DNA from: Accumulibacter sp.
Lineage (GTDB): Bacteria; Pseudomonadota; Gammaproteobacteria; Burkholderiales; Rhodocyclaceae
Reading direction: 5' to 3'
DNA: 33,791 nucleotides
NCBI GenBank assembly: GCA_020049495.1
Contig: JAIFKU010000110.1
Location: 1-33,791 of the forward strand
A model generated the notes under the pieces. That model was not told the origin of the DNA, did no database searches, and saw only the letters and a list, made by a program, of their open reading frames with translations. How positions within the stretch are numbered: position 1 is the stretch's first letter; each line of letters opens with the position of its first letter. The translations under genes were made by a program, and so were the position numbers. Below, one piece after another: positions 32,205 to 33,656 of the stretch.

Positions 32205-33656
32205 ATGGCCAAGGTCGTTAAAGCTGCACCCGCTAAGAAAGTTGTTCCCGCCAAGAAGGCTGCTCCTGCCAAGAAGGCTGTTGCAGTCAAGAAGGTCGTC
32301 GTCGCCAAGAAAGCCGTTCCCGTCAAGAAGGTGGCTGCGCCCGCCAAGTTCGTCAAGATCACCAAGGTCGTCGGTCGTCAGATTCTCGACTCGCGCGGCA
32401 ATCCCACCGTTGAAGTCGATATCACGCTGAATAACGGATTCATGGCGCGAGCCGCCGTTCCGTCCGGCGCCTCGACTGGCGAATTCGAAGCCTGCGAACT
32501 GCGCGACGGCAACAAGAAAGTTTATCTCGGCAAGGGCGTGCTCAAGGCGGTTGCCGCCGTCAATGGCCCGATCGCCACTCTGCTCAAGGGCAAGAACCCG
32601 CTTAACCAGCGCGAGCTCGACGCAGCGATGATCGCGCTGGACGGTACCACCAACAAGTCCAAGCTCGGCGCCAATGCGCTGCTCGGCGCGTCGATGGCCA
32701 TCACCGTGGCTGCCGCCAGTGTCAGCAAGATGCCGCTGTGGAAATACATTGGCAAACTGCACAAGAACAAGGAATTCGTTCTGCCGACGCCGATGGCCAA
32801 CATCATCAACGGCGGCAAGCACGCTGACAACCTGATCGACTTCCAGGAATTCATGATCATGCCGGTCGGCGCCAAGACCTTCTCCGAAGGACTGCGCTGG
32901 GTCACCGAAGTGTTCCATGCCTTGAAGAGCATCCTCAAGAAGGGTGGCCACGTCACTGCCGTCGGCGACGAAGGTGGCTTCGCCCCGAACCTGACCAACG
33001 ATCAAGCGCTTGACGTCGTCATGCAGGCGATCGAGGCCGCCGGTTACAAGCCCGGCAAGCAGATCGCGATTGCGCTCGACTGCGCGTCTTCCGAACTGTT
33101 CGACGAAGGCGAGCGCAAGGGCTACAAGTTCTGGAAATCGAATCCGGACAAGCTGTTCACCGCCGACGAAATGATCGCCATCTACGCTGACTGGTGCAAG
33201 AAGTACCCGATCGTTTCGATCGAGGATGGTCTTGACCAGAGCGACTGGGACGGCTATGTCAAATTCACCAAGGCGCTCGGCAAGAAGGTGCAGATCGTCG
33301 GCGACGATTTCTTCGTTACCAACCCGACCCGCCTGAAAAAGGGCATCGACATGGGCGCCTGCAACGCGATCCTGATCAAGGTCAACCAGATCGGCACCGT
33401 GACTGAAACTCTGGACGCCATCAAGATGGCACAGAAGGCCGGTTATGGTGTGATCTCCTCGCACCGCTCGGGTGAGACGGAAGACTCCTTCATCGCCGAC
33501 CTCGCCGTCGGTACCGGTGCCGGCCAGATCAAGACCGGTTCGCTGTCGCGTACCGACCGCATCTGCAAGTACAACCAGTTGATCCGCATCGAAGAGCAAC
33601 TCGCTGCCAAGGCCATATACAAAGGTCTGAAGTCGATCAAGGGCGCCGGTTACTGA
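32205..33656 (+). CDS. eno: Enolase with a 48-residue lysine-rich N-terminal extension
   Basis: Converts 2-phosphoglycerate to phosphoenolpyruvate. 483 residues; the enolase core begins at [18 protein letters not shown] (about residue 48), where E. coli has its first residues, so about 48 are extra. Catalytic motifs are intact: [67 protein letters not shown]. The extension (MAKVVKAAP, then six AKKxxx hexapeptides) resembles histone-H1-like Ala/Lys/Pro proteins. ATG 32205 has GGA six bases upstream; ATG 32193 would add four residues. A GTG at residue 43 could yield a near-normal enolase. Core wording ([34 protein letters not shown]) differs from what I expect of proteobacterial Eno, so transfer is possible. 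Confidence 0.95.
32232..32339 (+). repeat. Six tandem 18-bp units encoding [A/V]KK hexapeptides
   Basis: Six degenerate 18-base units start with GCTAAGAAA or GCC/GTC-AAG-AAG/AAA and encode residues 10-45 of the enolase as [A/V]-K-K-[A/V]-[A/V]-[P/A/V]. Units vary mainly at third positions, as expected of a translated repeat. Copy number could change by slippage without breaking the frame. Confidence 0.9.

Follow-up and report, generated by a model that had tools for sequence, protein, structure and literature searches.

The window, by which we mean the whole stretch of 33,791 nucleotides analysed here, encodes an enolase of 483 aa at 32205-33656, in one frame that runs from an ATG at 32205 to a stop codon at 33656. 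This enolase begins with a lysine-rich arm and lies downstream of a gene for a fluoride channel homologue and a gene for a DUF190 protein. The features of the locus are as follows.

31249..31635, + strand: crcB (Fluc fluoride channel) homologue, a neighbour of eno (PF02537, E 3.1e-28)
31667..32020, + strand: DUF190 (COG1993) protein, between crcB and eno (PF02641, E 1.2e-16)
32140..32145, + strand: presumed −10 box TATACT of eno's own promoter, a TATAAT-like hexamer being found here in 20 aligned Propionivibrio rows
32195..32198, + strand: GGAA Shine-Dalgarno-like element, 6 nt before the ATG at 32205
32205..32348, + strand: lysine-rich N-terminal arm, residues 1-48 (15 Lys, 0 Arg, 0 Asp or Glu; six [A/V]KK units)
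32349..33656, + strand: enolase core, residues 49-483 and stop (PF03952, PF00113; net charge about +8)
33682..33708, + strand: intrinsic terminator after eno (8-bp stem, UUCG loop, T run)

The crcB open reading frame was listed from 31216, in the same frame as the ATG at 31249. Both Pfam enolase domains were found in the 483-aa protein above their curated cut-offs, Enolase_N (PF03952) at residues 52-182 with 181.7 bits (cut-off 35) and Enolase_C (PF00113) at residues 191-479 with 430.9 bits (cut-off 21.5), which establishes the protein as an enolase. Twelve residues that we presume to be catalytic or metal-binding, from the roles of their counterparts in the E. coli and yeast enzymes (S90, H206, E215, E256, D292, E340, D367, K392, H420, R421, S422 and K443), were identical in all 113 aligned enolases; because these positions are intact, the tailed enolase is probably active. 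The stretch containing the terminator (33670-33712) had a folding energy of −19.9 kcal/mol (z −2.8), and the terminator was absent from the list produced by a program scan for terminators and promoters.

An earlier note on this DNA described about 48 residues ahead of the normal enolase, consisting of MAKVVKAAP and six [A/V]KK units, and the frame, its translation and the Pfam domain limits bear out this description: residues 1-48 comprise MAKVVKAAP, six [A/V]KK units spaced six residues apart, and VAAPAK. The array was detected independently by Tandem Repeats Finder, at period 18 (32220-32329, score 78) and again at period 36 (32231-32332, score 118). Within the window the composition is unique to the arm, since only 29 of the 27,950 open six-frame 48-mers contained at least 12 Lys with at most one Arg and at most one acidic residue, and all 29 started at 32166-32250 on the + strand. 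The arm is predicted to be disordered, AlphaFold assigning a pLDDT below 50 to residues 1-46 and mostly above 80 to the core. Two DNA patterns used to look for the same arm elsewhere in the window's genome matched the eno gene alone, the first with 5 matches (0 in its controls) and the second, which has little power, with 2 (4 in its reversed control).

The same note had called the gene an enolase fused to a histone-H1-like tail. The extension is indeed in frame; however, the arm alone matched no Pfam family even at an E value of 10, so that "fusion" is too strong a word and N-terminal extension is the better description. Likewise, the Lys/Ala-rich composition does resemble that of H1-like tails, but membership of the HC2 family (PF07382) was not supported, the profile matching neither the window protein nor its arm; among two relatives, the P. 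dicarboxylicus enolase scored 9.3 bits (cut-off 40) and that of P. soli gave no match. We therefore rejected the arm as a member of the histone-H1-like family. In further contrast to the arm, HC2-like proteins are separate in some genomes of the genus; such separate matches (L169-L176) occurred in 13 of 28 genus genomes, 5 of them over the cut-off, and none lay in the window's own genome.

Upstream of the arm, GGAA, GGAG or GGGA precedes the ATG equivalent to 32205 in all 29 aligned rows, of which 20 are Propionivibrio and 9 Accumulibacter (one Accumulibacter sequence appears twice). The reading frame continues uninterrupted through every arm, and an in-frame ATG further upstream (32193) is not conserved. 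All 20 Propionivibrio rows retain the −10-like box, with or without linkage to crcB; the consensus promoter scan did not list TATACT and no good −35 element was seen, so the assignment as a promoter comes from conservation alone. Because a promoter-like box, a Shine-Dalgarno element and the ATG are all conserved in front of it, the arm is very probably translated, and the impression recorded in the earlier note that the six units look translated is strengthened by this conservation, by the open frame and by constraint at the codon level. That the arm is instead an untranslated leader or start-site artefact, and that the protein really starts near residue 43 or 49, is highly improbable: the window does offer an in-frame GTG at residue 43 (32331), and against it stand the start signals in 29 of 29 rows, the frame open through each arm and the codon-level constraint.

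To describe the distribution of the tailed enolase we use the name Propionivibrio for the window's genus group, a name inferred for the group, which includes P. dicarboxylicus (G005) and P. soli (G006). The tailed gene was present in 20 of the 28 genomes of this genus, with an arm on 20 of 20, and in 13 of the 17 genomes with completeness of 90% or more and contamination of 5% or less; in one genome (G008) it was divided between two contigs. The arm-enolase junction recurs in the records deposited under the names P. dicarboxylicus DSM 5885 and P. soli, and an assembly error, which the earlier note had considered, is very unlikely given the same junction in 20 of 28 genomes. Each of the eight other genomes, some of them incomplete assemblies, had one enolase match that was 51-58% identical and represents the ordinary enzyme. 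Conversely, G022 and G011 had the tailed copy with no ordinary enolase seen, a pattern that may be genuine or due to a gap in the assemblies. In a second genus, g43, the gene was present in 23 of 28 genomes, two copies being clearly partial; we take g43 to be Accumulibacter because the core of one member (G256) is identical to a named Accumulibacter record. Wider samples contained the gene in 13 of 249 genomes and 2 of 68 genera of the family and in 1 of 369 genomes of the class, that one being the window's own (E 1e-165). Viral contigs gave 60 pattern-matching stretches, none encoding a relative, and among 339 matching plasmid records the best had about 60% identity, with no close relative.

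Among the best 80 of 588 matches in named genomes, the next relatives were one Fibrimonadaceae (Fibrobacterota) metagenome-assembled genome (MAG), at 82% identity, followed by Spirochaetes at no more than 69%. The G+C content of the MAG stretch was 42%, compared with 59% for the window. Its enolase (L006, 1-1302) is apparently untailed and has GGAGG in front; the contig begins 12 bases before the ATG, so absence of an arm is likely rather than certain.

The window's genome encodes an ordinary enolase as well; it shares 57% identity with the tailed one and lies near frames that we recognised by eye as presumably kdsA and pyrG. In a midpoint-rooted FastTree tree of 113 sequences (L030, which has no open frame, was dropped), the tailed and Accumulibacter enolases joined Fibrimonadaceae (support 1.0), then Spirochaetes (0.915) and then Planctomycetes (0.928), and 11 canonical enolases of the same order formed a separate clade (0.998). 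Judged by this tree, the tailed gene is a second enolase lying outside the canonical clade of its order, and the simplest reading is that it was probably acquired laterally. Neither this second-copy status nor the identity of the crcB and DUF190 neighbours had been remarked on in the earlier note. A tree of the cores, whose outgroup is a long branch, nested Accumulibacter within Propionivibrio; a topology keeping Propionivibrio together was not rejected (AU p = 0.456).

The departure from an ordinary enolase extends beyond the arm: the core is charge-reversed as well, a feature missed in the earlier note. Core net charge was +2 to +9 in 19 of 19 complete tailed Propionivibrio enolases, compared with −23 to −15 in all 11 canonical enolases of the same order and −2 to +3 in 9 Accumulibacter rows. 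Over 74 other references, again without L030, the mean was −17.2, and the highest values were +16 (Fibrimonadaceae) and then +1. With their arms, the 19 complete Propionivibrio copies had a whole-chain charge of +10 to +37. The 9 Accumulibacter rows had a whole-chain charge of −1 to +4 and extensions of 19-41 aa with a net charge of −1 to +1, and 15 further Accumulibacter extensions, some rows of which are the same sequence, ranged from −2 to +2. Since the cores of the sister MAG enolase and of the tailed enolases are both cationic, the charge reversal may be older than the arm. The Fibrimonadaceae core (L006) was itself the most cationic of the 113 compared.

We also examined how the arm varies within Propionivibrio. 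The 20 arms ranged from 24 to 103 aa in length and from +3 to +33 in net charge, with short, weakly basic examples in G011 (+3) and G015 (+6). Lys accounted for 280 of their 1076 residues, Arg for 1 and acidic residues for 8 (3 of them Glu), and Ala, Val and Pro made up 37%, 14% and 11%. AAA/AAG, K/E and K/R changes are all A-G transitions. When aligned Lys codons were compared in nine disjoint genome pairs picked by the analyst, there were 14 AAA/AAG differences, 0 K/E and 0 K/R. Lys was absent from one side at 19 of 122 aligned Lys positions, in repeats that align ambiguously and with a bias toward K-K pairing, and the replacements were mostly small uncharged residues (Ala 5, Thr 5, Ser 3, Asn 2, and Pro, Val, Gly and Gln 1 each). 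Arm dS and dN were 0.30 and 0.02 for the close pair G026/G005 and 0.52 and 0.09 for G007/G022; arm dN was high in distant pairs, and among the 14 closest pairs listed several had an arm dN of 0.2-0.5 and one Propionivibrio pair had dN above dS (G015/G001, 0.47 vs 0.43). Indels were frequent between close relatives. These comparisons support retention of the arm lysines against Arg and Glu, and indicate that the make-up of the arm is kept while its length and order turn over.

The best explanation for these results, to which we assign a probability of roughly 45%, is that a second, laterally acquired enolase is held on a polyanion, most likely nucleic acid, by multivalent electrostatics. Enolases are dimers or octamers, and an oligomer of the tailed enzyme, once it had arrived by lateral transfer, would present many arms, each chain contributing a net charge of about +10 to +37. 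Such charge would provide multivalent, sequence-independent electrostatic attachment to a polyanion, of which nucleoid DNA or an RNA-rich phase are the likeliest forms, while the ordinary enolase, at about −22, would stay soluble. The bound pool would then supply local 2-PG/PEP conversion, or would form a reserve that salt, polyphosphate or modification of lysines could set free. On this proposal arm length may vary freely because charge alone would matter. The retention of Lys in the arm, the cationic core and the predicted disorder support attachment to a polyanion. KPAA-repeat peptides like those of the AlgP and PhaF tails bind DNA, according to a passage in PMC9239181, and an excerpt of PMC4356359 describes positively charged nuclear enolases of Toxoplasma that bind DNA; TgENO1 resembles the tailed enolase in its raised positive surface charge, but it is eukaryotic and nuclear and carries the charge on the folded enzyme surface. 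Against this reading, the Accumulibacter orthologues keep a charge-balanced extension, so that the clade as a whole can do without a basic arm. Also counting against it are the short, weakly basic arms of G011 and G015, the frequent replacement of Lys, the high arm dN of distant pairs, the ambiguous alignment of the repeats and the lack of an HC2 match.

Alternatively, the arm could be a disordered linker, prone to slippage but tolerated, that aids solubility or the initiation of translation and has no particular binding partner; selection would then act on crude composition alone. We consider this unlikely, though it accommodates the spread of arm lengths from 24 to 103 aa, the frequent indels between close relatives and the charge-balanced extensions at the equivalent place in Accumulibacter. 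However, without selection for Lys it is hard to account for 280 Lys beside 1 Arg and 3 Glu, or for 14 synonymous differences at Lys codons where K/E and K/R changes are absent, and a linker leaves the cationic core unexplained.

Electrostatic attachment as proposed above does not extend readily to polyphosphate, one of the ligands that the earlier note had suggested. As a conserved role polyphosphate binding looks unlikely, the extensions in Accumulibacter, a polyphosphate accumulator, being near neutral. As a conserved target polyphosphate is disfavoured because the polyphosphate accumulator has the neutral version and the basic one belongs to Propionivibrio, described as glycogen-accumulating in a portion of PMC12604563. 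Polyphosphate may itself select against a cationic enolase. It is conceivable, though quite unlikely, that charge is tuned to the polyanion content of the cell, the enzyme retaining its cationic core and lysine arm in glycogen-accumulating Propionivibrio, and core and extension alike having drifted to neutral in Accumulibacter, where the enzyme would avoid trapping by polyphosphate. If so, a charge-reversed clade would have entered Propionivibrio and Accumulibacter by lateral transfer as an anchored isoenzyme.

The position of eno beside a fluoride-exporter gene raises a further alternative. Counting the window's own, 12 of the 20 tailed genomes have the order crcB-DUF190-eno on one strand, and 2 more have two of these genes together (DUF190 at a contig edge in G019; crcB about 1 kb off in G008). 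Extra enolases sit in fluoride operons, as in Enterobacter cloacae FRM, where eno is up 176-fold (from parts of PMC5533749 and PMC11139923), and with eno next to crcB a fluoride link of the tailed gene is possible. The enzyme would then be a spare, used when fluoride blocks the main enolase, and the arm would be incidental or would tune the enzyme. In agreement with this, three genomes that lack the tailed gene (G012, G024 and G020) have crcB beside a recB-like gene, and neither DUF190 nor eno was found in the part that was read. We nevertheless regard a fluoride-response role as improbable. No fluoride riboswitch (RF01734) was found in the window at the gathering threshold or in 7 related loci, and a search of the 28 genus genomes, limited to 126 scored candidates in each, placed matches over the cut-off in 3 (5 at E 0.001), none on a contig with the tailed eno. 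In addition, unlike the fluoride-operon enolases, which resemble it as extra enolases near crcB (part of PMC5533749), the tailed eno has its own conserved promoter-like box, kept in unlinked genomes, and its linkage is not universal: crcB and DUF190 were unlinked in 6 of 20 tailed genomes (G002, G016, G021, G015, G001 and G011, of which G001 has less than 1 kb upstream), and crcB was unlinked at two Accumulibacter loci (L003 and L004). Finally, the island on G027:C119 (L168), a contig where the riboswitch matches three times, combines crcB and a DUF190-like gene (27% identity) with a further enolase; this enzyme differs from the tailed one, and its frame has no space for an arm. In the 7 stretches around eno-less crcB genes (L161, L162, L164 and others) DUF190 was found in none, and it is present where eno is; DUF190 may belong with CrcB function.

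The arm might also target enolase to a storage granule or condensate, such as PHA, polyphosphate or Hfq-polyphosphate bodies, in the manner of the AlgP and PhaF tails. A passage in PMC9239181 describes AlgP and PhaF of Pseudomonas as Lys/Ala/Pro-tailed proteins of polyphosphate and PHA granules, their tails being predicted-disordered, strongly positive repeats attached to another domain as in the tailed enolase, and part of PMC11839049 reports that E. coli enolase co-localises with Hfq-polyphosphate bodies. We give granule targeting a low probability, since Accumulibacter, the model polyphosphate accumulator, has a near-neutral extension and core, the basic arm sits in a genus described as glycogen-accumulating (portion of PMC12604563), and no phasin or HC2 match was found in the window protein. 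Moreover, the AlgP and PhaF tails are C-terminal KPAA repeats, whereas the present arm is N-terminal, sits on a metabolic enzyme, has [A/V]KKxxx units with no KPAA unit in the window arm, and has a putative binding role only.

The tailed enolase is thus real, conserved and unusual, with a putative tethering role. It shares with bacterial enolases both domains, the presumed active-site residues and 57% identity to the ordinary copy, but differs in its lysine arm, cationic core, status as a second copy and probable lateral origin. Among the open-licence PMC articles listed, none dealt in its title or abstract opening with a lysine-tailed or charge-reversed bacterial enolase, and the enolase passages in PMC7986553 and PMC12766714 mention no second enolase and no extension. 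Few enzymes are as conserved as enolase, and the enolases used here for reference were mostly acidic (mean net charge about −17). A lysine-armed enolase of reversed charge beside an ordinary copy in one cell is a natural test of whether electrostatics alone can direct a glycolytic enzyme to nucleoid, RNA or storage polymer. The orthologues, with a basic arm in Propionivibrio, a near-neutral extension in Accumulibacter and apparently none in the Fibrobacterota MAG, make this directly testable, and P. dicarboxylicus is available from a strain deposit (DSM 5885). Phosphorus-removing sludge harbours members of both Propionivibrio and Accumulibacter (a section of PMC12604563).

Directly 3′ of the eno terminator, window positions 33709-33791 resemble by eye the 5′ end of a group II intron; the Rfam model group-II-D1D4-4 scored 8.9 bits here (gathering score 49, E 7.4). 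The window ends in this intron-like sequence, and the contig may end there too, as at a repeat.
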